Positions 8,656 to 24,283 of a stretch of 64,000 bases of DNA are shown here, in pieces. The notes under the pieces are model-generated. The model had not been told where the DNA came from, made no database searches, and saw only the letters and a program-made list of their open reading frames with translations. The translations under genes and the position numbers were made by a program. Source of the stretch: Pelomonas caseinilytica (GTDB lineage: Bacteria; Pseudomonadota; Gammaproteobacteria; Burkholderiales; Burkholderiaceae_C); contig NZ_JAJTWT010000001.1 in NCBI RefSeq assembly GCF_021353235.1, forward strand, positions 310,001 to 374,000, written 5' to 3'. Each line of letters begins with the position of its first letter. Positions within the stretch are counted from its first letter, which is position 1.

Positions 8656-8674
8656 GCGCGGCGGCTGCCGCGGG

Positions 8675-11269
<2,595 letters not shown>

Positions 11270-11294
11270 GGTGGTAATCCTCCGGTTGCGAGAC

Positions 11295-11322
11295 AAGTGG
11301 GCGCCTGGCGGCGCTTTTCAAG
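11295..11322 (-). promoter_or_regulatory. sigma-32 (RpoH) type promoter of clpB
   Basis: On the minus strand a perfect heat-shock -35 CTTGAAA (11316-11322) is followed after 13 bases by GCCCACTT (11295-11302), which matches 6 of 8 positions of the CCCCATNT -10. The spacing is the one favoured by sigma-32, and a start about 19 bases before the ATG leaves room for the ribosome site. Confidence 0.8.
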
Positions 11323-11327
11323 TTGCG

Positions 11328-11693
11328 CTAAATCAAGGCCTGGATCAGTCGCATGCCCAGCCAGGCGGCCAGCAGGGAGCCTAGAACGTGAGCCAAGGTA
11401 TGGGCAAGGGCCATGCCCAGCTCGCCATGCCGCAGCAGCGCCAGCGATTCGCCGGAAAACGCCGAAAAGGTCGTCAGTCCGCCCAGGAAGCCCGTCACCA
11501 GCAGCAACTTGAGCAGCTCGTTGGGCTGGCGGCCGAACCACTCCAGCGCCATGCCGATCAGCAAGCCACCCACCAGGTTCACCAGCAGGGTGCCGAGCGG
11601 AAAGCCTGCCCAGCGGGTGTTGAACAGCAGGCCGGCCTGCCAGCGCGTGAGGGCGCCCAGGGCGGCGCCGATGGACACGGCCAGGGCGTTCAT
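11328..11693 (-). CDS. crcB: fluoride channel CrcB/Fluc
   Basis: Small dimeric membrane channel that exports fluoride. The 121-residue protein has four hydrophobic helices and the conserved motifs GALTRW near the N-terminus, GTLLVNLVGG in helix 2 and GFLGGLTTFSAFS in helix 3, the last carrying the phenylalanine/serine pore signature. It overlaps the end of moaE by four bases (ATGA), so it is probably translated from the moaE mRNA. No fluoride riboswitch fold was noticed before it, as expected for an internal operon gene. Confidence 0.93.
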   Translation of the reverse strand: MNALAVSIGAALGALTRWQAGLLFNTRWAGFPLGTLLVNLVGGLLIGMALEWFGRQPNELLKLLLVTGFLGGLTTFSAFSGESLALLRHGELGMALAHTLAHVLGSLLAAWLGMRLIQALI

Positions 11694-12163
11694 CGGGCGT
11701 TGCTCCCGGCGATGCCCCAGCGGGCCAGGGCCTCGTCGTCGCTCGTGCGGGCATCCACCCAGTGGGCGCCGTCCGGCGTGTGCTCCTTCTTCCAGAACGG
11801 AGCCTGGGTCTTGAGGTAGTCCATCAGGAATTCGCAGGCCTGGAAGGCCTGGCCGCGGTGGGCGCTGGCCACCAGGACGAGGACGATCTGGTCCCGCGCC
11901 TCCAGGCGGCCGACGCGGTGGATGACCTTAGCGGCGCGGATGTCGAAGCGCGCGAAGGCCTCGTCCACCATGGCCTCGATGGCCGCCTCCGTCATGCCGG
12001 GGTAGTGCTCGAGCTCCATGCCGGTCACGGCCTGGCCGCCGCTGAGCTCGCGCACGGTGCCCACGAAGGCGACGACGGCGCCCACCCCGCCATCCCCAAG
12101 GCGCAGGGCGGTCGTTTCGGCATGGAGGTCGAAATCCTCCGTCTGGATGCACACTCTCGGCAT
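11690..12163 (-). CDS. moaE: molybdopterin synthase catalytic subunit MoaE
   Basis: With thiocarboxylated MoaD, inserts dithiolene sulfur into cyclic pyranopterin monophosphate to form molybdopterin. The protein is 157 residues from the ATG at 12163. Family motifs are present: FVGTVR, LEHYPGM, HRVGRL, VASAHR and the lysine-rich active site KTQAPFWKKE. A longer frame from 12178 exists, but its ATG overlaps a -10-like GACAAT, so 12163 is preferred. moaD lies 8 kb away (19984-20238) with the whole SPFH/polyamine island between them, although the two genes are commonly adjacent in related bacteria. Confidence 0.95.
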   Translation of the reverse strand: MPRVCIQTEDFDLHAETTALRLGDGGVGAVVAFVGTVRELSGGQAVTGMELEHYPGMTEAAIEAMVDEAFARFDIRAAKVIHRVGRLEARDQIVLVLVASAHRGQAFQACEFLMDYLKTQAPFWKKEHTPDGAHWVDARTSDDEALARWGIAGSNAR

Positions 12164-12170
12164 GGCACGG

Positions 12171-12176
12171 ATTGTC
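12171..12176 (-). promoter_or_regulatory. -10-like box abutting moaE start
   Basis: GACAAT on the minus strand ends 7 bases before the ATG at 12163, predicting transcription initiation at or next to the start codon. No -35 was recognised and no Shine-Dalgarno precedes the ATG. Confidence 0.4.
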
Positions 12177-12275
12177 ACCGCGGCGCGCGGTGAGATTCAC
12201 CTGTTTGGGACGTCCGGCGCCCGGTCGCGGCCGGATACTGCGGCCCATTTCTTCTGACCGCATGCGGGAAACGAC

Positions 12276-13307
12276 ATGGCCCTGATGGATTTCATCAAGA
12301 AACAGTTCATCGACATCATCCAGTGGACGGAGGACGGCGACGGGACCCTGGCCTGGCGCTTCCCGATGGCCGGCATGGAAATCCAGAACGGCGGCCAGCT
12401 GGTGGTGCGCGAGTCTCAAGTGGCCGTCTTCGTCAACGAGGGCCAGGTGGCCGACGTCTTCGGCCCCGGCACCCACCGCCTGACGACCCAGACGCTGCCG
12501 GTCCTGACCTACCTGAAGAACTGGGACAAGCTCTTCGAGTCGCCCTTCAAGAGCGACGTCTACTTCTTCAGCACCCGCCAGCAGATCGACCAGCGCTGGG
12601 GCACCAGCCAGCCGGTCGCCATCCGCGACAAGGACTTCGGCGCCGTGCGCCTGCGCGCCTTCGGCAACTACGCCTACCGCATCCAGGACCCCAAGACCTT
12701 CCACAGCCAGGTCTCGGGCACCCGCGAGCGCTACACGGTACAGGACCTGGAAGGCCAGCTGCGCGGGCTGATGCTGCAGCACATCAGCGACGCCGTCGCC
12801 AGCAGCGGCACGCCCTTCCTGGACCTGGCCGCCAACCAGGTGGAGTTCGCCGCCGCCCTCAAGAACGCCACCGCGCCCGCCTTCGCCGCCCTCGGCCTGG
12901 AGCTGGTGACGGTGACGATGCAGAACGTCTCCCTGCCGGAAGAGCTGCAGAAGATCCTGGACCAGCGCATCGGCATGGGCATCATCGGCCAGAACATGGG
13001 CCAGTTCATGCAGTACCAGGCCGCCCAGGCCCTGCCGGAGATGGCCAAGGGCGTGGGCAGCGGCGGCAGCGGCATCGCGGGCGAGGCCGTCGGCCTGGGT
13101 GCCGGCGTGGCCCTGGGCCAGACGCTGGCGCAGACCCTGGGCCAGGGCCTGGCCGGCGTCGGCACCGCCGCCCCGGCCCCGGCGGCCAGCAAGCCCGACG
13201 ACATCGTGGCCCTGCTGGAGAAGCTCGGCGACCTCAAGGCCAAGGGCATCCTGACCGACGAGGAATTCGCCGCCAAAAAAGCGGACCTCCTGAAGAAACT
13301 TGGCTGA
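12276..13307 (+). CDS. SPFH domain protein with C-terminal SHOCT (YdjI / virion-core-like)
   Basis: A 343-residue protein with a stomatin/prohibitin-type SPFH domain (about residues 35-255), resembling Bacillus YdjI and the so-called virion core proteins. A Gly/Ala-rich linker (about 260-305) leads to a C-terminal SHOCT-like helical hairpin with the motif LKAKGILTDEEFAAKKADLL. There is no clear transmembrane helix, so it may be a peripheral membrane scaffold. SPFH proteins organise membrane microdomains; the exact role here is unknown. It is the first gene of the island, and its last codons overlap the TTG start of the DUF4178 gene by eight bases, so the two are surely co-expressed. Confidence 0.85.
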   Translation: MALMDFIKKQFIDIIQWTEDGDGTLAWRFPMAGMEIQNGGQLVVRESQVAVFVNEGQVADVFGPGTHRLTTQTLPVLTYLKNWDKLFESPFKSDVYFFSTRQQIDQRWGTSQPVAIRDKDFGAVRLRAFGNYAYRIQDPKTFHSQVSGTRERYTVQDLEGQLRGLMLQHISDAVASSGTPFLDLAANQVEFAAALKNATAPAFAALGLELVTVTMQNVSLPEELQKILDQRIGMGIIGQNMGQFMQYQAAQALPEMAKGVGSGGSGIAGEAVGLGAGVALGQTLAQTLGQGLAGVGTAAPAPAASKPDDIVALLEKLGDLKAKGILTDEEFAAKKADLLKKLG

Positions 13308-14892
13308 CCAGGCGCCAGCCGCGCAGCGCCGCTGGCGCGCCGCCTGCCCGAACTGCGGCGCGCCGGTCGAGTTCGCCAGCGCAGCGTCGACCACGGCCGT
13401 CTGCGGCTTCTGCCGCAGCACGCTGCTGCGCGACGGCGAGGCGCTGAGCCAGATCGGCCAGAGCGCCGAAATCTTCGAGGACTATTCACCCCTGCAGCTG
13501 GGCGCAACCGGCCGCTACATGGGCCGCGGCTTCGCCGTGGTCGGCCGGGTGCAGCGCGGCTCTGAACTCGGCAACTGGAACGAATGGCATCTGCTCTTCG
13601 ACGCCGGCCCGGAGACGCCGCGCGTCGCCTGGCTCAGCGAGGACAACGGCCAGTTCGTCATCAGCCTGGAGGCGCCGCTCGCGGAAGCGCCCCCTGAGGC
13701 GCCCGGCGTGGGCCTGCCTATCACGGTGGCGGGCCAGCGCTGGCAGGTCGCCGCCGTCGTCGAGGCCGCCCTGCGCGCCGCCGAAGGCGAACTGCCCCGC
13801 CCGCCCAAGGCCGGCCGCGTCGTCGAGTTGCGCAACGCCCAGGGCGAGGTCGGCAGCCTCGAATACCGCGTGGGCCAGCCGCCGGTCTGGTCGATAGGGC
13901 GCAGCGTGGCCCTGGCCGACCTGGCCCTGGAAGGCCTGCGCACCACGGCCGAGGGCGAGTCCGTCGCCGAGGCGAAGTTCAAGGGCAGGGCAATCGCCTG
14001 CCCCAGTTGCGGCGCACCGCTGGAACCCAAGCTCGCGCAGTCCAAGAGCATGGTCTGCGCCCAGTGCAGCGCCGTCGCCGACCTGCCCGAGGGGGAGTCC
14101 AAGGCCCTGGGCTTCACGCCCCAGGACCGCGGCCTGCCGCCGCTGATTCCGCTGGGCCGCACCGGCACGCTGGCCGTCGACGGCAAGCCCGAAGCCTGGA
14201 CCGTCGTCGGCTACCAGGAGCGCTGCGACATCCCCGAAGACGCCGACGACGAGCAGAGCTTCTGGCGCGAATACCTGCTCTACAACCGCCTGGCCGGCTT
14301 CGCCTTCCTCGTCGACACCCGCGAGGGCTGGAGCCTGGTGCGCACGCTGACCGGCGCGCCGGCGCCCGCGCGCGGCGGGGTCAGCTGGCAGGGGCGGGAC
14401 TACACCCAGCGCTGGACCTACGGCGCCAAGACGACCCACGTGCTCGGCGAGTTCTACTGGCCCGTGCGCCTGGACGACCGCGTCCAGGTCACCGACTTCG
14501 CCAGCCGCGACGGCCAATACCTGCTCAGCCGCGAGCAGCAGGGGCCGGAGGTCACCTGGAGCGGCGGCGGCGTGCTGCCGGCCGAGACCGTCCGCAAGGC
14601 CTTCGGCCTGGTCGGGCCGGCCGTGCCCTTCGAGCGCGACGCCTCGGCCTTCAAGAGTGGCAACACGCTGCTGCGCAACATCGTGATCGGCCTTTTCCTC
14701 GTCGTGCTGCTCTTCGCCCTGCTGCGCGCCTGCTCCGGCGACGACTGTCAGCCCTACAAGGACAGCTTCGGCGAGAACAGCAACGAATACCGCCAATGCC
14801 GCGCCAACCTGCGCAGCGGCAGCAGCGGCTACGTCGGCAGCGGCGGTGGCAGCTACGGCGGCTACAGCAGCGGCGGCGGCGGCCACAAGTAA
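13300..14892 (+). CDS. zinc-ribbon DUF4178 membrane protein
   Basis: A 530-residue protein with two similar halves. Each starts with a zinc ribbon (CPNCGAP ... CGFC at about residues 16-38, and CPSCGAPLEPK ... CAQC at about 232-262) followed by a beta-rich DUF4178 region containing YMGRGF / NEWHLLF in the first half and YQERCD / WREYLLYN in the second. A single transmembrane helix (IVIGLFLVVLLFALL, about residue 465) and a Gly/Ser/Tyr-rich tail end the protein. The TTG start overlaps the SPFH stop; no ATG lies early enough to keep the first ribbon. The function of DUF4178 is not established. Confidence 0.82.
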   Translation: MADQAPAAQRRWRAACPNCGAPVEFASAASTTAVCGFCRSTLLRDGEALSQIGQSAEIFEDYSPLQLGATGRYMGRGFAVVGRVQRGSELGNWNEWHLLFDAGPETPRVAWLSEDNGQFVISLEAPLAEAPPEAPGVGLPITVAGQRWQVAAVVEAALRAAEGELPRPPKAGRVVELRNAQGEVGSLEYRVGQPPVWSIGRSVALADLALEGLRTTAEGESVAEAKFKGRAIACPSCGAPLEPKLAQSKSMVCAQCSAVADLPEGESKALGFTPQDRGLPPLIPLGRTGTLAVDGKPEAWTVVGYQERCDIPEDADDEQSFWREYLLYNRLAGFAFLVDTREGWSLVRTLTGAPAPARGGVSWQGRDYTQRWTYGAKTTHVLGEFYWPVRLDDRVQVTDFASRDGQYLLSREQQGPEVTWSGGGVLPAETVRKAFGLVGPAVPFERDASAFKSGNTLLRNIVIGLFLVVLLFALLRACSGDDCQPYKDSFGENSNEYRQCRANLRSGSSGYVGSGGGSYGGYSSGGGGHK

Positions 14893-14917
14893 GCTCACTG
14901 CTCCCAAGGAGAACCCC

Positions 14918-15139
14918 ATGACCCTCGACTGGCTCAGGCCCGAAGTGATCCTCGGCTCGACGATGTATGCCGTCATCGGCGTCGTCATCTTCTGGGTCTC
15001 GTTCGTCATCGTCGACAAGATCACCCCCTACAAGCTGTGGGAGGAACTCGTCGAGCACAAGAACGTGGCCCTGGCCATCGTCGTCGGCGCGATGTGCCTG
15101 TCCATCGGCAACATCGTCGCCGCGGCCATCCACGGCTGA
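14918..15139 (+). CDS. DUF350 (YjfL-like) small membrane protein
   Basis: A 73-residue protein with two transmembrane helices (about residues 14-34 and 51-71) joined by a short polar loop (DKITPYKLWEELVEHKN). This matches one DUF350 repeat, the unit found in E. coli YjfL; the family often has two or more repeats, so this is a minimal version. A good Shine-Dalgarno AAGGAG (14906-14911) lies six bases before the ATG. The gene is 25 bases after the DUF4178 gene. DUF350 proteins are seen near polyamine-type and membrane-stress genes, but their activity is unknown. Confidence 0.82.
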   Translation: MTLDWLRPEVILGSTMYAVIGVVIFWVSFVIVDKITPYKLWEELVEHKNVALAIVVGAMCLSIGNIVAAAIHG

Positions 15140-15229
15140 TGCCCCTGTCCGCCACGGGGGCAGCCAAGGTGCCGGCCCCGCCTTTCCGGTGGACACTCGC
15201 GCGTCGATGAACGACCGCACAGGCCAGCC

Positions 15230-16174
15230 ATGACTTTTTCCGTCCGCCGCCTCGCCACGGCCCTGACCCTCCTCCTCGCCGGGGCCGCCTCGGCCGCCGA
15301 CGCCCCGCCCGACATCGCCGTCTTCGTCGCCCGCCTCGACCTCGAGGCCGCCACGGTCAGCGAGGTGCGCGACATCACGCCCGGCAAGGGCAGCAGCTTC
15401 CAGCCGGCCTTCACGCCCGACGGCAAGGCCGTCGTCTACACCTCGGGCCGCACGGGCTCGAACAACGTCTACCGCTACGACCTGGCGCAGGGCACGACCA
15501 CGGCCGTCACCGCGACGACCGAGAACCTGTACTCGCCCACGCCGCTGGCCGACAGCAGCGGCTTCTCGGCCATCCGCGTGGTCACGGCCGACCCGGCCTA
15601 CGGCATCGAGATGAACCTGCCCTCGCTCTGGCTCTTCGGCTGGGACGGCAAACCCGCCGCGCCGGTCGTGCCGGTCAAGCGCATCGGCTACCACGCCTGG
15701 ATCACGCCCGACCTCGTCGCCGCCTTCCTCGTCGACGACGTGCCCGACCGCAATGCCCACCGAGCCGTGCTCATCAGTCGCACCACCGGTCGGCAGACGC
15801 TGCTGACCGACAAGCCCGGCCGCTCGCTGGGCCGCACGGCCGACGGCAAGCGCGCCCTCTTCGTCGACCAGACCGACCCCGCGCACTGGGTCATCGCCGC
15901 CATGGGCGCGGGCGATGCCAAACCGCAAGTCCTGGTGGAGACGCCGGCCCCGGCCGCGGGCGAAAAGGAGTCTCAGCGCAGCGCCTACTTCGCCGCGCTG
16001 CCGGACGGCTCGCTGCTGATGGCGCACGGCGCCCGGCTGCTGCGCTGGGACGGCCAGCCCGGCGGGAGCTTCCGCCCCCTGGCGGACGTGCCGGGGCTGG
16101 GCGGCGCCATCCGCACCCTCGCCGTCAGCCCCGACGGCAAGCGCCTGGCCCTGTCGGTGCTGCGCCAGCCGTGA
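15230..16174 (+). CDS. exported TolB-like beta-propeller protein
   Basis: A 314-residue protein with a clear signal peptide (RRLATALTLLLAGAASA then ADAPPD) and repeated WD40/PD40-like blades such as PAFTPDGKAVVYTS, LGRTADGKRALFV and LAVSPDGKRLALSV, typical of TolB-type periplasmic propellers. No catalytic domain follows, so it is likely a binding or scaffolding protein of the periplasm. Its stop overlaps the GTG start of the spermidine-synthase-like gene (GTGA), which ties it to the island operon. I do not recognise a closer family. Confidence 0.75.
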   Translation: MTFSVRRLATALTLLLAGAASAADAPPDIAVFVARLDLEAATVSEVRDITPGKGSSFQPAFTPDGKAVVYTSGRTGSNNVYRYDLAQGTTTAVTATTENLYSPTPLADSSGFSAIRVVTADPAYGIEMNLPSLWLFGWDGKPAAPVVPVKRIGYHAWITPDLVAAFLVDDVPDRNAHRAVLISRTTGRQTLLTDKPGRSLGRTADGKRALFVDQTDPAHWVIAAMGAGDAKPQVLVETPAPAAGEKESQRSAYFAALPDGSLLMAHGARLLRWDGQPGGSFRPLADVPGLGGAIRTLAVSPDGKRLALSVLRQP

Positions 16175-17727
16175 CGCCCGCGCCGCCCGCCGCGCGCGTG
16201 TCCCTGGCCGAGCTGCTGCTGCTGGCCAGCGTCTTCGTCATCGCCGCCTGCGGCCTGGTCTACGAGCTGGCGGCCGGGGCGCTGGCGAGCTATCTGCTCG
16301 GCGACTCCATCCTGCAGTTCTCCACGGTCATCGGCGTCTACCTCTTCGCCATGGGCCTGGGTTCGTGGCTGTCGCGCTTCGTCGAGCGCCAGCTGGTGGG
16401 CGTCTTCCTGCAGGTGGAGCTGCTGGTGGGCGTGGTCGGCGGGCTGATGCCGGCCGGCCTCTTCGCCGTGCACAGCCTGCTGCCGCCGGGCGAGGGCGCG
16501 GCCTTCCGCACCCTGCTCTACGCCCTGGTGCTGGTGGTGGGCGCGCTGGTGGGCCTGGAGATCCCGCTGGTGATGCGCATCCTCAAGCGCCACTTCAGCG
16601 CCCGCTACGGCCTCAAGGACCTGGTCTCGCAGGTGCTCACCTTCGACTACCTCGGCGCCCTGCTGGTGGCCCTGGCCTTCCCGCTGGTGCTGGTGCCGCA
16701 GCTCGGGCTGGTGCGCACCGGCATCGCCTTCGGCCTGCTCAACGTCGGCGTGGCCGTGTGGGCGCTGTGGATCTTCCGCGCAGAGCTGCGGGCGCGGCGC
16801 AGCCAGGCCGTGGCCTGCGCGGTGTCGGCCGTGCTGCTGCTGGCCGCGCTGCTCGGCGCCGAGCAGCTCACGCGCTGGTCCGAGGAGCGCTTCTACGGCG
16901 AGCACATCATGCTGCGCCAGAGCAGCGCCTACCAGCGCATCGTCGTGACCGACGGCGGCGGCGGCACGCGGCTCTTCCTCAACGGCAACCTGCAGTTCCA
17001 CTCGCGCGACGAATACCGTTATCACGAGGCCCTCGTCCACCCCGCCATGGCCGCCCACGGGGCACCCAAGCGGGTGCTGGTGCTCGGCGGTGGCGACGGC
17101 ATGGCCGTGCGCGAGGTCCTGAAGTACCCGAGCGTCGAGCAGGTCACCCTCGTCGAGCTGGACCCGCTGATGACGCGCCTGTTCACCGACACGCCCAAGC
17201 TCGCCGCCCTGAACGGGCATTCGCTGTCCAACCCCAAGCTGCGCATCGTCAATGCCGACGCCTTCGGCTGGCTGGAACAGCACCCGGACGTCTTCGACGT
17301 CATCGTCATCGACTTCCCCGACCCCTCCAACTTCGCCCTCGGCAAGCTCTACACGGCGAGCTTCTACGAGCTGGTGGACCAGCATCTGAGCGCCGCGGGC
17401 TACGCCGTCGTGCAGACCACGTCGCCGCTGATCGCCCGGCGCAGCTTCTGGACGGTCGTCACGACGCTGGAGTCGGTCGGCCTCACCGCCACGCCCTACC
17501 ACGCCCACGTGCCGAGCTTCGGCGAATGGGGCTTCGTGCTGGCCTCGCACCGGCCCTTCCGGGTGCCCGCCGCGCTGCCGGCCGGCCTGCGCTTCCTGAG
17601 CCCGCAAAGCCTGCCGGCGCTGCTGGACTTCCCGCCCGACATGGCGCGCGTGCCGACCGAGGTCAACCGCCTGTCCAACCAAGTGCTGGTGCAGGAGTTC
17701 GAGGCCGAGTGGGGCAAGGTGCACTGA
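16171..17727 (+). CDS. polyamine aminopropyltransferase with seven-TM N-terminal domain
   Basis: A 518-residue fusion. The first ~230 residues contain seven hydrophobic helices; the C-terminal ~280 residues form a spermidine-synthase Rossmann domain. Visible signatures are YQRIVVT, FLNGNLQF, DEYRYHEALVHP, the nucleotide-binding GGGDGMAVRE near residue 306, VELDP and VIVIDFPDPSN, the counterpart of the SpeE catalytic loop. Such enzymes move an aminopropyl group from decarboxylated AdoMet to an amine acceptor; the acceptor here is unknown and may be membrane-delivered. The GTG start overlaps the propeller stop. An AdoMet decarboxylase gene (speD) at 19614-19979 would supply the donor. Confidence 0.88.
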   Translation: MTPAPPAARVSLAELLLLASVFVIAACGLVYELAAGALASYLLGDSILQFSTVIGVYLFAMGLGSWLSRFVERQLVGVFLQVELLVGVVGGLMPAGLFAVHSLLPPGEGAAFRTLLYALVLVVGALVGLEIPLVMRILKRHFSARYGLKDLVSQVLTFDYLGALLVALAFPLVLVPQLGLVRTGIAFGLLNVGVAVWALWIFRAELRARRSQAVACAVSAVLLLAALLGAEQLTRWSEERFYGEHIMLRQSSAYQRIVVTDGGGGTRLFLNGNLQFHSRDEYRYHEALVHPAMAAHGAPKRVLVLGGGDGMAVREVLKYPSVEQVTLVELDPLMTRLFTDTPKLAALNGHSLSNPKLRIVNADAFGWLEQHPDVFDVIVIDFPDPSNFALGKLYTASFYELVDQHLSAAGYAVVQTTSPLIARRSFWTVVTTLESVGLTATPYHAHVPSFGEWGFVLASHRPFRVPAALPAGLRFLSPQSLPALLDFPPDMARVPTEVNRLSNQVLVQEFEAEWGKVH

Positions 17728-17734
17728 GCCGCCC

Positions 17735-17983
17735 ATGCAACCCGATGCCTCCCTCGCCCAGGCCGACGTGCCGACCACGCCGGCCAACACCGATGCCCAC
17801 GACCTGGACAGCGTCTACCGCAACCTCGTCCACGGCGTGGGGCATGAGCACGTAACCGACGACAACGTCGAGGAACTTATCCGCCGTGCCGAGGCCGACA
17901 ACCACCCGGTGCTGGCCGCCGAACTGCGCGAATGGCGTTCGCCCTGCGGCGACGACAGCGCCACGCCCAAGCGCGCCTCCTGA
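17735..17983 (+). CDS. small hypothetical protein of the SPFH/polyamine island
   Basis: An 82-residue, mostly acidic, soluble protein starting seven bases after the aminopropyltransferase stop, in the same direction. The central part (DLDSVYRNLVHGVGHEHVTDDNVEELIRRA, described here as two short helices) is predicted helical, and the ends are disordered. I do not recognise a family. The tight spacing and the codon bias, similar to its neighbours, support it as a real gene. Confidence 0.6.
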   Translation: MQPDASLAQADVPTTPANTDAHDLDSVYRNLVHGVGHEHVTDDNVEELIRRAEADNHPVLAAELREWRSPCGDDSATPKRAS

Positions 17984-18006
17984 GCGCCGCGCGAGGGCGG
18001 CGCTGG

Positions 18007-18012
18007 TACGCT
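18007..18012 (+). promoter_or_regulatory. -10-like box before the FAD oxidase gene
   Basis: TACGCT ends seven bases before the TTG start at 18020, the same geometry as the boxes before nadB, moaE and dinB. It suggests the oxidase can be transcribed separately from the upstream island genes. The match is only 4 of 6 and no -35 was recognised. Confidence 0.3.
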
Positions 18013-18019
18013 GCCGCCC

Positions 18020-19624
18020 TTGCGCCCACCTGCCTCCGCCCCCTCTCCTGCCGCCTGCGCCGCCGCCTCGCCGGTCGGCCCGAGCCGCCGCACGCTGCTG
18101 CTGGGCCTGCTGGCCAGCGGCTGCAGCCCCGACGCGCCGGCCTGGCAGGGCGGCTGGGTCGGCACCCACCCCGAGCGCGCCCATCGTCTGCGCGCCGGGG
18201 AGCTGCCGGCGGCCGGCGGGCCGCTGCGACGAGCCGGCGTGATCGTCGTCGGCAGCGGCATCGCGGGCCTGGCCTGTGCGCGCCAGCTCGCGCGGCGCGG
18301 CGTCGACGACATCGCCCTGCTCGACCTGGAAGACCAGGCTGGCGGCAACAGCCGCGGCCACGAGCTGGGCGGCGTGGCCTGCCCGCTGGGAGCCCACTAC
18401 CTCCCCCTGCCGGGCCCGCAGGCCCGCGAGGTGGCGGAGCTGCTGCACGACCTGGGCCTGGCGCGCGAGGAGTCCGGTCGCACGGTTTGGGACGAGCGCC
18501 ACCTCTGCCACAGCCCGCAGGAGCGCCTCTTCATCGACGGCGAATGGCGCGACGGCCTGCTGCCGCCGCCCGACGGCGCGGCGTCGCTGGCCCAGTACCG
18601 GCGCTTCGCCGACCTCGTCGCCCGGGCTCAGGGCGAGCTGGGCTTCGCCATGCCCAGCCACCGCGCGCCCTGGACGCCCGCCCATGCCGCACTGGACGCC
18701 CTGTCGTTTGCCGCCTGGCTGGACGGCCACCGCCTCTCCGACGCACGGCTGCGCTGGTACCTGGACTACTGCTGCCGCGACGACTACGGCGCCGACTCAC
18801 ACACTGTGTCGGCCTGGGCCGGCCTGCACTACTTCGCCAGCCGCCACGGCTTCCACGCCCCCGGCGACGAGACGGCCGAGCGCGAACCCGTGCTGACCTG
18901 GCCCGAGGGCAACGGCTGGCTGTCCCGGCGCCTGGCCGAGCCGCTGCGCGAGCGCCTGCATCTCGGCCGCACCGTGCTGCGCGTGACCGAGCAACGCAGC
19001 GGCGTGGAGCTGCTGGCCTGGAACGAGGCCGCCGGCGCCCCCGAGCGCTGGGCGGCCCGCGCTGTCGTGCTGGCCACGCCCCTCTTCGTCGCCGCCCGGC
19101 TGCTGGCCGCACCGCCCGAGGCGCTGCGGGCCCTGAAGCAGGCCCACGCCCCCTGGCTGACCGCCAACCTCGCGCTTCGCGAGCCGCTGCTGGCGCGCCC
19201 CGGCGCGCCGCCGTCCTGGGACAACGTGCGCTACGGCTCCGCGGCCCTGGGCTACGTCGACGCCCGCCACCAGGACCTCGACCCGACGCCCCGGCCGCCA
19301 CGGCTGACGGCCTATCTCGCCTTGCCCCAGGCCAGCCGCGCGGAGCTGCTGGCGAAGCCCTGGCAGCACTGGGCGCAGGCCGCGACGGCCGACCTCGCCC
19401 TCACCCACCCCGACCTGCCGGACAAGCTCGAGCGCATCGACCTCTGCCGCTTCGGCCACGCGATGAGCATCCCCACGCCGGGCCTGCGCGGGTCCGCCGC
19501 GCTCGCCGCGCTCCATGCCCAGCGCGGGCGTGTCGTCTTCGCCCACAGCGACCTGGCGGGGTATTCGGTGTTCGAGGAGGCCTACACGGCCGGCATCGAG
19601 GCCGCGGCCCGGCTCAGCCTCTGA
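18020..19624 (+). CDS. FAD-dependent amine-oxidase-like lipoprotein (Tat-type signal)
   Basis: A 534-residue flavoprotein. The N-terminus has SRRTLLLG, a Tat-like motif, leading to a lipobox LASGC with the cysteine at residue 35, so export as a folded, FAD-loaded lipoprotein is expected. The Rossmann motif GSGIAGLACA is near residue 77, followed by LLDLEDQAGGNSRGHE, the flavin-phosphate loop of the amine-oxidase superfamily; the C-terminal HSDLAGYSVFEEAYTAG fits its FAD-closing motif. The TTG start is the only one that retains the signal. It converges on speD with an 11-base overlap. Polyamine oxidation is suggested by context only. Confidence 0.8.
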   Translation: MRPPASAPSPAACAAASPVGPSRRTLLLGLLASGCSPDAPAWQGGWVGTHPERAHRLRAGELPAAGGPLRRAGVIVVGSGIAGLACARQLARRGVDDIALLDLEDQAGGNSRGHELGGVACPLGAHYLPLPGPQAREVAELLHDLGLAREESGRTVWDERHLCHSPQERLFIDGEWRDGLLPPPDGAASLAQYRRFADLVARAQGELGFAMPSHRAPWTPAHAALDALSFAAWLDGHRLSDARLRWYLDYCCRDDYGADSHTVSAWAGLHYFASRHGFHAPGDETAEREPVLTWPEGNGWLSRRLAEPLRERLHLGRTVLRVTEQRSGVELLAWNEAAGAPERWAARAVVLATPLFVAARLLAAPPEALRALKQAHAPWLTANLALREPLLARPGAPPSWDNVRYGSAALGYVDARHQDLDPTPRPPRLTAYLALPQASRAELLAKPWQHWAQAATADLALTHPDLPDKLERIDLCRFGHAMSIPTPGLRGSAALAALHAQRGRVVFAHSDLAGYSVFEEAYTAGIEAAARLSL

Positions 19625-19979
19625 GGAGCTGCTGGCGGCGGACCTCGGTGGGCTGGAAGGAGGCAATCAACGCCTCCAGCAGCGCACGCGCCTTGTCGCT
19701 GTTGTCGCTGCCGTAGTTGCAGACGTAGACGTCCAGCGTCACGCCGCCCAGCTCGGGCCAGGTGTGGACCGCCATGTGGGACTCGGCCAGCAGCACGACG
19801 CCGGTGATGCCGGCCTGGCCATCGGCCGGGCCGAAGCGGTGCATCAGCTCGGCCACGCCGCTCAGGCCGGCGGTTCGCACGGCCTCGCGGCAGACCGCGG
19901 CCAGCCGCGCCGCGTCGGTCATCAGCGCCAGCGCCGGGTCGACGCCGCGCAGGTCGGCCGTCAGGTGCAGGCCCTGCAT
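19614..19979 (-). CDS. speD: S-adenosylmethionine decarboxylase proenzyme SpeD
   Basis: Pyruvoyl enzyme that makes decarboxylated AdoMet, the aminopropyl donor. The 121-residue length is that of the short bacterial/archaeal class. The self-cleavage site ESH is at residues 66-68, with Ser67 the future pyruvoyl group, inside LLAESHMAVHTWPE; DVYVCNYG supplies the catalytic cysteine (Cys87). It begins only four bases after the moaD stop on the same strand, so it is read from the thrC-moeA-moaD mRNA and occupies the place where moaE would be expected. Its 3' end overlaps that of the convergent FAD oxidase gene. Confidence 0.93.
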   Translation of the reverse strand: MQGLHLTADLRGVDPALALMTDAARLAAVCREAVRTAGLSGVAELMHRFGPADGQAGITGVVLLAESHMAVHTWPELGGVTLDVYVCNYGSDNSDKARALLEALIASFQPTEVRRQQLLRG

Positions 19980-19983
19980 GGGC

Positions 19984-20238
19984 TCAGCCGCCGGTCACGG
20001 GCGGGAAGAAGGCCAGCTCGTCGCCCTCGGCCAGCACGGCGGTCTCGGGCGCCATCTTCTGGTTGAGCGCCGAACGCACGGCCCGGCCGCGCGCCAGCGC
20101 CTGGGCATGCCGGTCGTCCCGGGCCATCAGGGCCTCGCGCGCCGCGGCGACCGTGCTGCCCTCCGGGAGCTGCAGCGTCCCGGCCTCGCCGAGCTTCTCC
20201 CGCAGCGAGGCGAAGAACCTGAGCTTCACCGTGATCAC
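19984..20238 (-). CDS. moaD: molybdopterin synthase sulfur carrier subunit MoaD
   Basis: Ubiquitin-like sulfur carrier, 84 residues, ending in the required Gly-Gly (VTGG), which is adenylated by MoeB and thiocarboxylated before giving sulfur to MoaE. The beta-grasp pattern starts MITVKLRFFASLREKLG. The GTG start overlaps the moeA stop (GTGA), showing tight coupling to moeA. Its partner moaE is 8 kb away on the same strand. Confidence 0.93.
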   Translation of the reverse strand: MITVKLRFFASLREKLGEAGTLQLPEGSTVAAAREALMARDDRHAQALARGRAVRSALNQKMAPETAVLAEGDELAFFPPVTGG

Positions 20239-21446
20239 GACAGCAGCTCCGAAAACGGGATGAAGCGCACCAGCTCGCCCTGGGCGAAGGCCTGGCCGGC
20301 GGGGTTGTCCAGCAGGCCGTCGGCCCAGAAGGCCGAGGTCAGCACGCCGCTGCTCTGGTTGCCGAACAAGGCCAGGCCGCTGGCCTCGTCCAGGCGCACG
20401 CGCAGGAACTCGCGGCGCTTGTCGGGCTTGGGCCAGTCGAAGCCGGCGGGGATGCGGTAGCCGCGCGGCGCCAGCCGGGCCGCGCCCTGCAGCTTGAGCA
20501 GGAAGGGCCGCACCAGCACGCAGAAGGTCACGAGACTGGACACCGGATTGCCAGGCAGGCCGATGAAGTGGGCCTGGCCGACTCGCCCGCAGGCGAAGGG
20601 CTTGCCGGGCTTGATGGCGATGGCCCAGAGGTCCAGGTGCCCCTCGGCCTGCACGGCGGGCTTGAGGTGGTCTTCTTCGCCGACGGACACGCCGCCCGAG
20701 GTGACGATGACGTCCGCCTTTGCGGCCGCCTCACGCAGCGCGGCTCGGGTGGCGTCCAACCGGTCGGGCACGATGCCCAGGTCGATGACCTCGCAGGAGA
20801 GGCCTTCCAGCAGGGCGCGCAAGGTGAAGCGGTTGGAGTTGTAGATGGCGCCGGGCGGCAGGGGCTCGCCGGGCATGACGAGTTCGTCGCCCGTGGAGAA
20901 CAGGGCCACGCGCGGGCGGCGGGTGACGGTCAGCTCGGCGGCGCCGGCCGTGGCGGCGAGGCCGAGTGCCACGGCATCCAGCCGCGTGCCGGCGGGCAGC
21001 ACGACGCCGCCGGCCTTCACGTCCTCACCGCGCAGGCGCACATGCTGGCCCGGCCTGACGGGCTGGGTCACGCGCACGCGGCCGTCCACGAGCTCGGTGT
21101 GCTCCTGCATGACGACCGCGTCGGCGCCGGGCGGCACCTGGGCGCCGGTGAAGATGCGGGCCGCCTCGCCGGCCGCGAGGGGCTGCGGCACGCTGCCGGC
21201 GGGGATGCGCTGGGTGACCGGCAGCGCCCCGCCCGCGTCCGCGGCGCGCAGGGCATAGCCGTCCATGGCCGAGTTGTCGGCGGGCGGCACGTCCACGGGG
21301 GAGACCAGGTCCGCGGCCAGCACGCGGCCACGGGCGGCCGTGGTGGGCAGGGTCTCGCGCCCGGCGAGGGGCTGGACCTGCGCCAGCAGCGTGGCCAGCG
21401 CGTCGTCCAGGGGAGTCAGGGCAGGTTTCTTCGCGGCATCAGACAT
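20235..21446 (-). CDS. moeA: molybdopterin molybdenumtransferase MoeA
   Basis: Inserts molybdate into adenylated molybdopterin to form the active cofactor. The 403-residue protein shows the MoeA hallmarks: PPADNSAMDGYAL near residue 55, IFTGAQVPPGADAVV near 92, the MoCF-binding segment FSTGDEL and TSGGVSVGEEDH in the G-like domain, and IKPGKPFACGR with GLPGNPVSS later. It overlaps thrC by eight bases and moaD by four, which makes a compact thrC-moeA-moaD-speD transcription unit. Confidence 0.96.
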   Translation of the reverse strand: MSDAAKKPALTPLDDALATLLAQVQPLAGRETLPTTAARGRVLAADLVSPVDVPPADNSAMDGYALRAADAGGALPVTQRIPAGSVPQPLAAGEAARIFTGAQVPPGADAVVMQEHTELVDGRVRVTQPVRPGQHVRLRGEDVKAGGVVLPAGTRLDAVALGLAATAGAAELTVTRRPRVALFSTGDELVMPGEPLPPGAIYNSNRFTLRALLEGLSCEVIDLGIVPDRLDATRAALREAAAKADVIVTSGGVSVGEEDHLKPAVQAEGHLDLWAIAIKPGKPFACGRVGQAHFIGLPGNPVSSLVTFCVLVRPFLLKLQGAARLAPRGYRIPAGFDWPKPDKRREFLRVRLDEASGLALFGNQSSGVLTSAFWADGLLDNPAGQAFAQGELVRFIPFSELLS

Positions 21447-22830
21447 GGGCGTGAATGTAGGCCTTCACGGCTTCCACATCCGCCGCCATGACTTTGACGC
21501 GCTTGGGCAGGTTCTCGATGCCTTCCAGCCCCGCCGGCCGCGGCGGCTCGATGGCCAGCGCCTCTCGGATGGTGGCCGCGAACTTGGCCGGCAGGGCCGT
21601 CTCCAGCACCAGCATCGTGACGGCGGGGTCGCGCTTCTCCAGCGCGACCTTGAGGCCGTCGGCCGTGTGGGGGTCGATGACCACGCCGTGCTCCGCATGG
21701 CAGCGGCGGATGGTCGCCACGCGGTCGGCGTGCGTGCTGCGGCCGGAGGTGAAGCCGAAGCCCGCGATGCCGGCATGCTCGCCGGCTGCCACTTCGAACT
21801 GCGGCACGGTGAAGTGCTGCTTCACCCGCGCGCCGTCGCGGCCCAGCAGGTCGAAGACGAAGCGCTCGAAGTTGCTGGCCTTGGAGATGTCCATCGACGG
21901 GCTGGAGGTCTCGTGCGTGTCGGCCGTGCCCCGCGGACGGTAGGCGCCGGTGCGGAAGAACTCGTCGAGCACGTCGTTCTCGTTGGTGGCCACCACCAGC
22001 TTGTCGATGGGCAGCCCCATCTGCCGGGCCACGTGGCCGGCACAGACGTTGCCGAAGTTGCCTGACGGCACGGTGAAGCTGACCTTCTCCGCGTTCGTCT
22101 TCGTGGCCTGGAAATAGCCTGCGAAGTAGTAGACGACCTGGGCCAGCAGCCGCGCCCAGTTGATGGAGTTGACCGTGCCGATACGGTGCTGGCGCTTGAA
22201 GGCGAGGTCGTTGGAGACGGCCTTGACGATGTCCTGGCAGTCGTCGAACACGCCTTCGATGGCGATGTTGTGGATGTTGGCGTCCTGCAGGCTGAACATC
22301 TGTGCCTGCTGGAAGGGGCTCATGCGCCCGTTCGGGCTGAGCATGAAGACGCTGACGCCCTTCTTGCCGCGCATGGCGTACTCGGCCGCGCTGCCGGTGT
22401 CACCCGAGGTGGCGCCCAGGATGTTCAGCGTCTCGCCGCGGCGGCCGAGCTCGTACTCGAACAGCGCGCCGAGCAGCTGCATGGCCATGTCCTTGAAGGC
22501 CAGCGTCGGCCCGTTGGACAGGCCCTGCAGGGCGATGCGCTCGCCCAGCCAGGTCAGCGGGGTGATTTCCTTCGTACCGAACACCTGCTCGGTGTAGACC
22601 TTGCGCGTGATCGCATGCAGGTCGTCGGCCGGGATGTCGTCGATGTAGAGGGACAGGATCTCGAAGGCCAGGTCGGCATAGGCCAGGCCGCGCCAGCGCG
22701 TGAGCGTGGCGTCGTCCACCTTGGGGTAGGCCTTGGGCAGGTAGAGGCCGCCGTCGGGGGCGAGGCCTTCGAGGAGGATGTCAGAGAAGCCGCGCTCGGT
22801 CTGGTCGCCGCGGGTGGAGATGTACTTCAT
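21439..22830 (-). CDS. thrC: threonine synthase
   Basis: PLP enzyme converting O-phosphohomoserine to threonine, the last step of threonine synthesis. 463 residues, the size of the longer (E. coli/yeast-like) class. The PLP lysine is Lys113 in GPTLAFKDMAMQ; GATSGDTGSAA and the phosphate-binding VPSGNFGNVCAG follow. The start MKYISTRGD at 22830 matches the family N-terminus; the open frame continues to 22995 but that part is a repeat element. hom lies upstream on the same strand, separated by the repeat at 22880-22962. Confidence 0.96.
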   Translation of the reverse strand: MKYISTRGDQTERGFSDILLEGLAPDGGLYLPKAYPKVDDATLTRWRGLAYADLAFEILSLYIDDIPADDLHAITRKVYTEQVFGTKEITPLTWLGERIALQGLSNGPTLAFKDMAMQLLGALFEYELGRRGETLNILGATSGDTGSAAEYAMRGKKGVSVFMLSPNGRMSPFQQAQMFSLQDANIHNIAIEGVFDDCQDIVKAVSNDLAFKRQHRIGTVNSINWARLLAQVVYYFAGYFQATKTNAEKVSFTVPSGNFGNVCAGHVARQMGLPIDKLVVATNENDVLDEFFRTGAYRPRGTADTHETSSPSMDISKASNFERFVFDLLGRDGARVKQHFTVPQFEVAAGEHAGIAGFGFTSGRSTHADRVATIRRCHAEHGVVIDPHTADGLKVALEKRDPAVTMLVLETALPAKFAATIREALAIEPPRPAGLEGIENLPKRVKVMAADVEAVKAYIHAHV

Positions 22831-22879
22831 GATGCTTTCACCGTGAGCAAACCGCTCGCGGCATCCAATGGATTGGTCA

Positions 22880-22962
22880 AGCGGCAGCCGTGGAACCGGC
22901 TTTGCCGGGCCACCGGCTGCGCCCCCTTGAGGGGGAGGCGCGAAGCGCTTCGGGGGTGGGCC
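22880..22962. repeat. 3'-flanking interspersed repeat, copy A
   Basis: About 83 bases between the hom stop and thrC start. The left 34 bases (22880-22913) are identical to 41479-41512, and the right part contains the same hairpin CCCCCTTGAGGGGG and ends in the same GGGGGTGGGC, which directly abuts the hom stop codon. The whole element can fold into several GC hairpins. In copy B (41479-41638) the two modules are separated by about 85 extra bases. Confidence 0.8.
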
Positions 22963-22963
22963 A

Positions 22964-24283
22964 TCACGCGAGTTCTTCCTTGCGGATGCGCACAATGGGC
23001 GCCAGCACCGTCGGCAGGCCCTGCATCTTGGCCAGGGCCTCGTTCATGCGGCCCTCGACGGTGTCGTGGGTCAGGATGATGAGGTCGGTCTGGCGCTCGC
23101 CTTCGGCCGACTCGCGCTGCAGCACCGCGTCGATGGAGATGTCGTGCTCGGCCAGGATGGTGGTGATGCGCGAGAGCACGCCCGGCTGGTCGGCCACCAC
23201 GAGGCGCAGGTAGAAGGCGGTGTGGACCTCGGCCATCGGCAGGATGGGCGTGTCGCTGATGGCGTCGGGCTGGAAGGCCAGGTGGGGCACGCGATGGTCG
23301 GGGTCGGCCGTGGCCAGGCGGGTCACGTCCACCAGGTCGGCGACGACGGCCGAGGCCGTGGGTTCGGCGCCCGCGCCCTTGCCGTAGTACAGCGTCGTGC
23401 CGACGGCATCGGCTTGCACGACGACGGCGTTCATCGCGCCTTCGACGTTGGCGATGAGGCGGCTGGACGGGATCAGCGTCGGGTGCACGCGCAGCTCGAT
23501 GCCGCCCGGGCGGCGCCGCGTGATGCCCAGCAGCTTGATGCGATAACCGAGCTGTTCGGCGTACTTGATGTCGGTGGCCTGCAGGCTGCTGATGCCCTCG
23601 ACGTGGGCCTTGTCGAACTGCACCGGCACGCCGAAGGCGATGGCACTCATGAGGGTCAGCTTGTGGGCGGCGTCCACGCCCTCGATGTCGAAGGTGGGGT
23701 CGCTCTCGGCGTAGCCCAGGCGCTGGGCTTCCTTCAGCACGGTGGCGAAGTCCAGGCCCTTGCCACGCATCTCCGACAGGATGAAGTTGGTGGTGCCGTT
23801 GATGATGCCGGCGATCCACTCGATGCGGTTGGCCGTCAGGCCCTCGCGCAGCGCCTTGATGATGGGGATGCCGCCGGCCACGGCCGCCTCGAAGGCGACG
23901 ACGACGCCCTTCTCGCGCGCGGCCTCGAAGATCTCGGTGCCGTGCAGGGCCAGCAGGGCCTTGTTGGCGGTGACGACGTGCTTGCCGTTGGCGATGGCCT
24001 GCAGCACCAGGCTGCGCGCGGGCTCGATGCCGCCGATGAGTTCCACGACGATGTCGATGTCGGGATTGGCCACCAGTTGCTGGGGATCGCCGACGCAGGG
24101 CACGCCGTCGCCGACGATGGCCTGGAAGGCCTTGGCACGCTCGGGGTTGCGTGCGGCCACCATGGCGATCTCGATGCCCCGGCCGGCCCGGCCGCGAATC
24201 TCGGCCTGGTTGCGCTGCAGGACGTGGAAGGTGCCGGCACCGACGGTGCCGAGGCCGATCAGGCCGACTTTGATCGCGTTCAT
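22964..24283 (-). CDS. hom: homoserine dehydrogenase
   Basis: NAD(P)H-dependent reduction of aspartate semialdehyde to homoserine, the branch point to threonine and methionine. 439 residues: N-terminal Rossmann motif GLGTVG at 10-15, the catalytic region ANGKHVVTANKALL and AVAGGIPIIKALREGL, the substrate motif GIINGTTNFIL, and a C-terminal ACT domain (about residues 355-435, RLVVADQPGVLSRITTILAEH) that normally gives threonine feedback control. The start at 24283 (MNAIKVGLIG) is chosen because the longer frame adds unrelated residues. It is 28 bases after the aminotransferase gene and likely in its operon. Confidence 0.96.
   Translation of the reverse strand: MNAIKVGLIGLGTVGAGTFHVLQRNQAEIRGRAGRGIEIAMVAARNPERAKAFQAIVGDGVPCVGDPQQLVANPDIDIVVELIGGIEPARSLVLQAIANGKHVVTANKALLALHGTEIFEAAREKGVVVAFEAAVAGGIPIIKALREGLTANRIEWIAGIINGTTNFILSEMRGKGLDFATVLKEAQRLGYAESDPTFDIEGVDAAHKLTLMSAIAFGVPVQFDKAHVEGISSLQATDIKYAEQLGYRIKLLGITRRRPGGIELRVHPTLIPSSRLIANVEGAMNAVVVQADAVGTTLYYGKGAGAEPTASAVVADLVDVTRLATADPDHRVPHLAFQPDAISDTPILPMAEVHTAFYLRLVVADQPGVLSRITTILAEHDISIDAVLQRESAEGERQTDLIILTHDTVEGRMNEALAKMQGLPTVLAPIVRIRKEELA

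Follow-up and report, generated by a model that had tools for sequence, protein, structure and literature searches.

A conserved DUF4178-DUF350-aminopropyltransferase-oxidase-SpeD island between moaE and moaD of Pelomonas caseinilytica as a candidate extracytoplasmic aminopropyl-transfer module

Proposed Function of the Island

Eight genes that do not belong to molybdenum cofactor synthesis are located between moaE and moaD in the 64,000-nucleotide stretch of Pelomonas caseinilytica DNA analyzed here (called the window; all positions refer to it). Their central member is a fusion of a seven-transmembrane (7TM) domain with a spermidine-synthase-like (SpdSyn) domain, which is accompanied by an SPFH/SHOCT protein, a zinc-ribbon DUF4178 protein, a DUF350 protein, a flavin adenine dinucleotide (FAD) amine-oxidase-like lipoprotein, the S-adenosylmethionine (AdoMet) decarboxylase SpeD, and two accessory genes. 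With evenly balanced confidence, and on sequence evidence, we read the island as an extracytoplasmic aminopropyl-transfer and oxidation module of the envelope, which would work without PspA and the ATP-grasp enzyme GSP_synth and would use an acceptor other than putrescine. An earlier note on this DNA had proposed the making and oxidizing of an aminopropylated compound at the envelope; this fits the present evidence, with both enzymes predicted to be extracytoplasmic.

In the proposed mechanism, SpeD would produce decarboxylated AdoMet (dcAdoMet) in the cytoplasm, and the seven-helix domain of the fusion, with its five invariant acidic residues, would pass this cation to the C-terminal SpdSyn-like domain. 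The latter, facing the periplasm, would transfer the aminopropyl group to a non-putrescine acceptor at the outer face of the inner membrane, and the lipoprotein, exported by the twin-arginine translocation (Tat) pathway to the same side, may oxidize or trim the product. The SPFH/SHOCT, DUF4178, and DUF350 proteins might serve as a membrane scaffold or sensor, possibly in stress, by analogy with the YdjI protein and its partners YdjG and YdjH.

More tentatively, and with confidence somewhat short of even, we suggest that 7TM-SpdSyn fusions in general pass dcAdoMet outward and aminopropylate an envelope acceptor, for example an amine-bearing phospholipid head group, and that the Tat lipoprotein oxidase edits the product. 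If this is true, aminopropylation would occur outside the cytoplasm, for which no precedent was found, and would constitute a new way of altering surface charge. Such proteins go by the name polyamine aminopropyltransferase or spermidine synthase in databases, which would be misleading for an outward-facing catalytic domain with an acceptor other than putrescine; in that case, an envelope modification awaits discovery.

Catalytic Domain of the Fusion

The fusion gene (16171..17727, plus strand) matches the Spermine_synth family (PF01564, E = 3.2e-35), and its product scores 673 bits against the NCBIfam polyamine aminopropyltransferase model NF002956, the cut-off of which is 472. At least 8000 relatives, not all of them necessarily membrane fusions, were returned by the homology search; among the best 120, which were listed, the nearest named relatives come from Roseateles and Pelomonas.

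Alignment with ACL5, the Thermus thermophilus enzyme, and six canonical SpeE proteins shows that the fusion has retained the GGG[DE]G and YH[ED] motifs and the D..DP pair (D381/D384). The differences are found at two other motifs, which we take to face the acceptor. All eight aligned fusions have PSFG where the six canonical proteins have the tyrosine-containing PLYG, and [VI]Q[TS]TSP replaces the LH[LI]G[SA]P of canonical SpeE. The change of PLYG to PSFG is counted here in favor of a non-putrescine acceptor, and the acceptor is probably a compound other than putrescine.

Membrane Topology of the Fusion

The hydropathy profile of the fusion displays seven peaks, the second of which is weak. 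The positive charges of the loops were counted in 96 distinct fusion sequences, which are related and so represent fewer than 96 independent tests. Loops 2-3, 4-5, and 6-7 carry on average 9.5 lysine and arginine residues (K+R), versus 2.0 for loops 1-2, 3-4, and 5-6 (10.9 versus 3.9 with the ends included), and the side formed by the N terminus and loops 2-3, 4-5, and 6-7 is the richer one in all 96 sequences. Loops 4-5 and 6-7 average 4.6 and 3.0 K+R, compared to 1.0 in loops 3-4 and 5-6. The single TM7 has a best hydropathy value (KD19) of at least 1.6 in 89 of the 96 sequences, the lowest being 1.26. A positive loop 6-7 on the inside followed by a single crossing of TM7 places the catalytic domain on the far side of the membrane, whether or not TM2 crosses. 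The catalytic domain is therefore predicted to be extracytoplasmic, on the same side as the oxidase.

Five acidic residues located in or next to the membrane (E32, D45, E83, E130, and D159) are invariant in 50 of 50 aligned fusions, which would suit a path for a cation through the 7TM part.

In the best-surviving alternative, the catalytic domain is cytoplasmic, and the fusion, anchored in the membrane, would aminopropylate either a lipid head group of the inner leaflet or a small amine of the cytosol; the product would be flipped or exported before its oxidation by the lipoprotein. Solved spermidine-synthase relatives act in the cytosol, where dcAdoMet is made, and the 26 solved relatives of the fusion match its catalytic part only (profile positions from 218 on), their 275-381 residues lacking the 7TM part; the weak TM2 moreover makes the helix counts uncertain. 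We nevertheless consider this arrangement unlikely, because the summed loop charge is one-sided in all 96 sequences and a single hydrophobic TM7 follows loop 6-7. The nine loci of the class-level search, window included, also speak against it, since in each of them the loop preceding the final hydropathy peak carries 2-4 K+R. Seven such peaks are found in seven of these loci and six in two.

SpeD and Its Company with the Fusion

The speD gene (19614..19979, minus strand; AdoMet_dc, PF02675, E = 8e-25) encodes a class-1b-type AdoMet decarboxylase scoring 82.4 bits against TIGR03330 (cut-off 75.65). The processing serine and the catalytic histidine and cysteine of this class are S63, H68, and C83 in the T. 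maritima enzyme, according to PMC10407285. The corresponding Ser/His motif and the downstream cysteine, for self-processing and catalysis, are kept in 50 of 50 copies linked to the fusion. Arginine or ornithine decarboxylase activity, as discussed in the same source (PMC10407285), was considered for SpeD and is disfavored. The retained HTWPE motif and the TIGR03330 score above cut-off favor AdoMet as the predicted substrate.

The co-occurrence was surveyed in 27 of 40 genomes, leaving out 12 of the same genus and one that is 68% complete; the set comprises 13 DUF4178 carriers and 14 non-carriers of the order. SpeD is present in 13/13 carriers versus 1/14 non-carriers (by genus, 6/6 versus 1/14; Fisher p = 1.8e-4), and the lone SpeD-positive non-carrier, G038, has a canonical SpeE with its SpeD. 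In G038 a 410-residue open frame (locus L057) encodes both an AdoMet decarboxylase and a canonical spermidine synthase, as a SpeD-SpeE fusion.

The association also holds at a distance. SpeD is absent from the stretch in 46 of the 80 named loci (defined under Conservation and Gene Order), and 38 genomes were searched for it, with eight of these loci (L086, L090, L100, L108, L109, L131, L132, and L136) left out. One SpeD match lies elsewhere in every one of the 38 (partial in G198, E = 1.8e-7), in several of them at a distance of 17-38 kb to the fusion gene. At E 1e-15, 33 of these genomes have no Spermine_synth match besides the fusion; in four (G205, G210, G214, and G216) a canonical SpeE is located next to SpeD, and one (G202) has a second, weak Spermine_synth match. 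In 49 of the 50 loci with a linked speD, this gene and the fusion gene are on opposite strands. In a class-level search of 140 genomes, the fusion (E up to 1e-60) was found in nine, and SpeD in eight of these nine versus 80 of 140 overall; DUF4178 was found in four genomes, all of which have the fusion. In Burkholderiales, SpeD thus accompanies the fusion, linked or not, which argues that the fusion uses dcAdoMet. An unlinked SpeD also offers a clean genetic handle, since 33/38 genomes combine a single SpeD with a single strong spermidine-synthase match, namely the fusion.

Ordinary spermidine synthesis by a membrane-bound spermidine synthase together with SpeD, the oxidase serving polyamine catabolism, is less probable still than a cytoplasmic catalytic domain. 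The scores of the fusion and SpeD above their NCBIfam equivalog cut-offs, the retained catalytic aspartates, and the lack of another spermidine-synthase match in most of the 38 genomes are what one would expect from such a pathway. Against it stand the acceptor-side motifs, which differ from those of canonical SpeE of the same order, and the four genomes that keep a canonical SpeE beside SpeD as well. In addition, such fusions reportedly accompany a functional AdoMet decarboxylase (AdoMetDC) and DUF350 where no spermidine is present, and an E. coli speE deletion is reported to be complemented by neither the whole fusion nor the SpdSyn domain (Li et al. 2019).

The Oxidase

The oxidase gene (18020..19624, plus strand; Amino_oxidase, PF01593, E = 2.4e-23) encodes an FAD amine-oxidase-like protein, whose N terminus contains a twin-arginine motif and a lipobox, SRRTLLLGLLASGC; these features predict a Tat lipoprotein. 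The combination of a twin arginine and a lipobox occurs in 84 of 87 oxidases, in a pattern that also admits KR and with 7 of the 94 oxidases left out since they have no detected FAD motif. The nearest solved sequence is the putrescine oxidase 2yg6 (E = 4.1e-13).

Evidence against an Extracytoplasmic Module

A number of observations weigh against the extracytoplasmic module proposed here. A periplasmic aminopropyltransferase needs export of dcAdoMet and loses methylthioadenosine, and the available text of the open-licence literature yielded no precedent for an extracytoplasmic aminopropyltransferase. The NCBIfam name of the fusion is simply polyamine aminopropyltransferase. As to the topology, the K+R counts are uncalibrated by any protein of known topology, TM2 is weak (mean KD19 of 1.39, at least 1.6 in 0/96 sequences), and most of the distant relatives lack a net positive loop 4-5. 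Cysteine content was tried as a topology test and rejected: the catalytic domain is free of cysteine in 93 of 96 sequences, but the SPFH protein is equally poor and the exported oxidase is not, so this near-absence gives no real support. As to the gene company, the single SpeD of carrier G023 stands next to a canonical SpeE, and at the class level a SpeD match is absent from one of the nine fusion genomes (G152) and a DUF4178 match from five. Finally, no NCBIfam model matches the oxidase above cut-off; the best one, HpnE, stays far below its own cut-off, which leaves amine oxidation unproven.

Conservation and Gene Order

The conservation of the island was followed in 100 loci, 20 of which come from DUF4178-matching genomes (20 of 25) and 80 of which are named loci reached through the fusion protein, namely the best 80 of 572 confirmed relatives. 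Five of the named loci share their fusion protein with one of the 20, giving 95 distinct loci, and the stretches of the named loci reach at most 10 kb to either side of the fusion gene. Over the 100 loci, SPFH is found in 90, DUF4178 in 93, DUF350 in 92, the fusion in 100, the oxidase in 94, and SpeD, as a linked gene, in 50. The five-gene core is complete in 65 of the 80 named loci, and in 65 of these 65 it has the order SPFH-DUF4178-DUF350-fusion-oxidase on one strand. We regard these five genes as the core and SpeD as its partner.

Ten of the 15 incomplete named loci are explained by a sequence that ends at or near the absent gene. In the remaining five (L069, L071, L076, L114, and L126), the stretch upstream of the fusion is devoid of SPFH, DUF4178, and DUF350. 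All five of their genomes have DUF4178 elsewhere, on another contig (G179, G183, and G200), at about 12 kb (G207), or at about 400 kb (G217). This retention of DUF4178 away from the fusion indicates that the two blocks, SPFH-DUF4178-DUF350 and fusion-oxidase, are separable and that both are kept. In two loci of other genera, L034 and L050, the fusion and oxidase genes are divergent from SPFH-DUF4178, and the 73-residue DUF350 model has no match in either. L034 has a 133-residue membrane protein at the DUF350 position, taken as DUF350 by eye only.

Gaps of more than 500 bp are rare at most junctions, being found in 1 of 90 SPFH-DUF4178 pairs (L034), 0 of 91 DUF4178-DUF350 pairs, and 5 of 94 fusion-oxidase pairs. 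Between DUF350 and the fusion they occur in 39 of 92 pairs (36 of 87 without duplicates) and extend up to 8.6 kb. This junction behaves as an insertion hotspot. In the named loci, 76 open reading frames (ORFs) were called in these gaps, and the 41 scanned include type III restriction-modification, M48 peptidase, TonB receptor, and chemotaxis receptor genes.

The propeller gene of the window is located in this hotspot. Its product (15230..16174, plus strand; PF07676, E = 1.4e-10) is a secreted beta propeller of the PD40 (TolB-like) type, the N terminus of which resembles a signal peptide. The 82-residue protein between the fusion and the oxidase (17735..17983, plus strand) matches no Pfam or NCBIfam family. 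Both are accessory, since only 9 and 6, respectively, of the 15 same-genus loci have them. The co-occurrence of all eight genes in other genomes, which the earlier note had made a test of its proposal, accordingly holds for the five core genes plus SpeD and fails for these two.

Some further gene contents of the hotspot are worth mentioning. In L103 and L129, type III restriction-modification genes (PADLOC models) lie between DUF350 and the fusion, with AlbA/Schlafen-like genes alongside, and L033, L122, and L124 have similar-sized genes, partly scanned, at this position. Among the same-genus loci (L035-L049), the gap contains an M48 peptidase in 10 of 15 and a YciI-like protein of about 114 residues in 13 of 15; in the window, the 91-bp gap before the propeller has no room for either.

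Insertion between moaE and moaD

The moaE gene stands beside SPFH in 15 of 15 same-genus loci and moaD beside SpeD in 14 of 15, the fifteenth stretch ending earlier. The earlier note had made the moaD-moaE spacing in island-free genomes the test of an insertion, and the outcome supports it: moaD neighbors moaE in 13 of the 13 non-carrier genomes with moaE, the fourteenth non-carrier, G038, lacking a match to moaE. In five carriers from other genera, the island occupies another site; moaD is next to moaE in three of them (G025, G027, and G036) and about 0.9 kb from it in G023, and G022 has no moaD within 1.5 kb of moaE. The adjacency in non-carriers and the location of the island elsewhere in other genera suggest that moaD-moaE adjacency is likely the older state and that the insertion looks positional rather than functional.

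Among the stretches of the named loci, 15 of 80 contain moaD or moaE (Roseateles, Pelomonas, Paucibacter, one Rubrivivax record, and further Burkholderiales), and 65 contain neither, including that of a Roseateles toxinivorans record (L075). The moa-located island is thus seen mainly in Roseateles, Pelomonas, and Paucibacter. A tie to molybdenum cofactor synthesis, for example through the supply or protection of an envelope molybdoenzyme, would account for the exact fit of the island into the moaE-moaD interval in 14 of 15 same-genus loci, where SpeD adjoins moaD, but is very improbable given those 65 stretches and the moaD-moaE pairs of all 13 island-free genomes with moaE.

Layout of the Window Locus

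The placement of eight non-moa genes exactly between moaE and moaD, described in the earlier note, was confirmed together with both flanks by the ORFs and Pfam. The left flank is moaE, the large subunit of molybdopterin synthase (11690..12178, minus strand; PF02391, E = 1.2e-36), and the right flank is moaD (19984..20238, minus strand; PF02597, E = 7.2e-17).

The first core gene (12276..13307, plus strand) encodes the SPFH protein, with a Band_7_1 domain (PF13421, E = 3.4e-76) and a C-terminal SHOCT domain (PF09851, E = 3.8e-9). The next (13300..14892, plus strand; PF13785, E = 1.2e-27) encodes the double zinc-ribbon protein with two DUF4178 stretches and a single C-terminal hydrophobic segment (KD19 of 2.68 at 457); its CxxC pairs, C16/C19, C35/C38, C234/C237, and C253/C256, are invariant in 8 of 8 aligned sequences. 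No stated function for DUF4178 was found in the available text of the open-licence literature. DUF350 (14918..15139, plus strand; PF03994, E = 1.4e-14) is a protein of 73 residues with two hydrophobic segments in its hydropathy profile.

The note had also taken overlapping starts as a sign that the whole set is expressed together. The overlaps are present for SPFH/DUF4178 (8 bp) and for propeller/7TM-SpdSyn (4 bp), but they provide no basis for co-expression of all eight. The minus-strand speD gene begins 4 bp past the moaD stop and has 11 bp in common with the end of the oxidase gene; being opposite to the other seven genes, it shares no transcript with them, so that at most seven are co-transcribed. 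Because speD directly follows moaD, any shared transcript would be with moeA-moaD.

The absence of PspA and ATP-grasp partners, also remarked in the note, extends to the whole genome. PspA (PF04012) has no match in the window genome and matches in 4 of the 27 surveyed genomes, three of them carriers, leaving 10 of 13 carriers without it. The ATP-grasp family GSP_synth (PF03738) has no match in any of the 13 carriers, window genome included, and one among the 27 genomes. No island protein has a Pfam match to a CesT/Tir-type protein.

A foreign origin was considered on the basis of composition and rejected: the GC content per 1 kb ranges over 0.67-0.77 within the island, compared to 0.67-0.71 on the left and 0.66-0.74 on the right, and does not change abruptly. 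Since there is no such break and the island is common to the whole genus, a recent transfer into the window genome is unlikely.

Regulatory Elements

The 97-bp divergent intergenic region between moaE and SPFH contains the palindrome GGTGAGATTCACC (12189..12201, no strand assigned; 5+3+5), a possible operator or moaE leader element. Allowing one mismatch, 22 of 86 loci have GGTGAGATTCACC at -86 to -91 relative to the SPFH start; all 22, some of them reached twice, are at the moa locus. Four moa-located loci (L070, L072, L077, and L078) do not have it. One terminator-like stem is present at 12223-12245, versus 0.2 expected.

No sigma-70-like site was found in 11900-12500 or 14800-20300, and strict patterns for sigma-54, sigmaE, extracytoplasmic function (ECF), rpoH, and sigma-70 sites have no match upstream of SPFH in any of the 86 loci. 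A loose GG-N10-GC pattern occurs there in 81 of 86 and is uninformative. Rfam gave no match in 8000-24000.

Comparison with Known Systems

Clusters of an AdoMetDC, an MFS-SpdSyn fusion, and DUF350 were reportedly described by Li et al. in 2019 (Biochem J 476:2579), who are said to have proposed a role outside polyamine synthesis. They resemble the island in the association of SpeD, a membrane SpdSyn fusion, and DUF350. Compared to what is reported for these clusters, the present analysis goes further in the counts for unlinked SpeD, the core order with oxidase and DUF4178 in Burkholderiales, and the predicted extracytoplasmic location of the catalytic domain.

The arrangement of an SPFH protein with a double-zinc-ribbon membrane protein needed for its membrane localization is found also in the ydjFGHI (pspA-ydj) operon of Bacillus subtilis. 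There, neither the SPFH protein YdjI nor PspA was recruited to the membrane once ydjG or ydjH had been deleted (PMC8581546), and YdjG is described as having two zinc ribbons and a TM segment (PMC11237479). Unlike this operon, the island has no PspA, and polyamine-type enzymes are not mentioned for the ydj operon in the available text of PMC8581546 and PMC11237479. The DUF4178 model has no match in B. subtilis, which was used as a control genome.

The closest published gene sets are those in section 19 of Ravi et al. 2024 (PMC11237479): an operon in which 7TM-SpdSyn, DUF350, and DUF4178 accompany PspA, and a variant that combines band-7/SHOCT with an AdoMet decarboxylase and a polyamine oxidase. 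The combination is therefore less new than the earlier note had supposed. With the PspA-associated operon (the second group there, e.g., AAN56744-AAN56747), the island shares a 7TM-SpdSyn fusion, DUF350, and DUF4178 in one neighborhood; it differs in having no PspA or CesT/Tir-type match, and has SPFH/SHOCT, the amine oxidase, and SpeD instead. With the variant it shares the band-7 and SHOCT domains in place of the CesT/Tir-PspA dyad, the AdoMetDC, the polyamine oxidase (in the island, a putative one), and DUF350. The variant is placed under the ATP-grasp group, whereas the island is without GSP_synth but has 7TM-SpdSyn and DUF4178; moreover, the variant has two TM segments between band-7 and SHOCT, while the SPFH protein of the island has no clear 2TM stretch there, its best KD19 being 1.24 at residue 267.

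For the function of such operons, section 20 of the same source proposes that polyamines are monitored or that other substrates are aminopropylated; its main text nowhere uses the word periplasm (PMC11237479). The island thus belongs to the published kind of 7TM-SpdSyn/DUF350/DUF4178 operons and is new only as a variant of it, since both the band-7/SHOCT and the 7TM-SpdSyn gene sets are already described there. To this kind the present analysis adds the core order in Burkholderiales, the company of SpeD with the fusion even when unlinked, the predicted extracytoplasmic catalytic domain, the insertion site between moaE and moaD, and the accessory genes with their hotspot.

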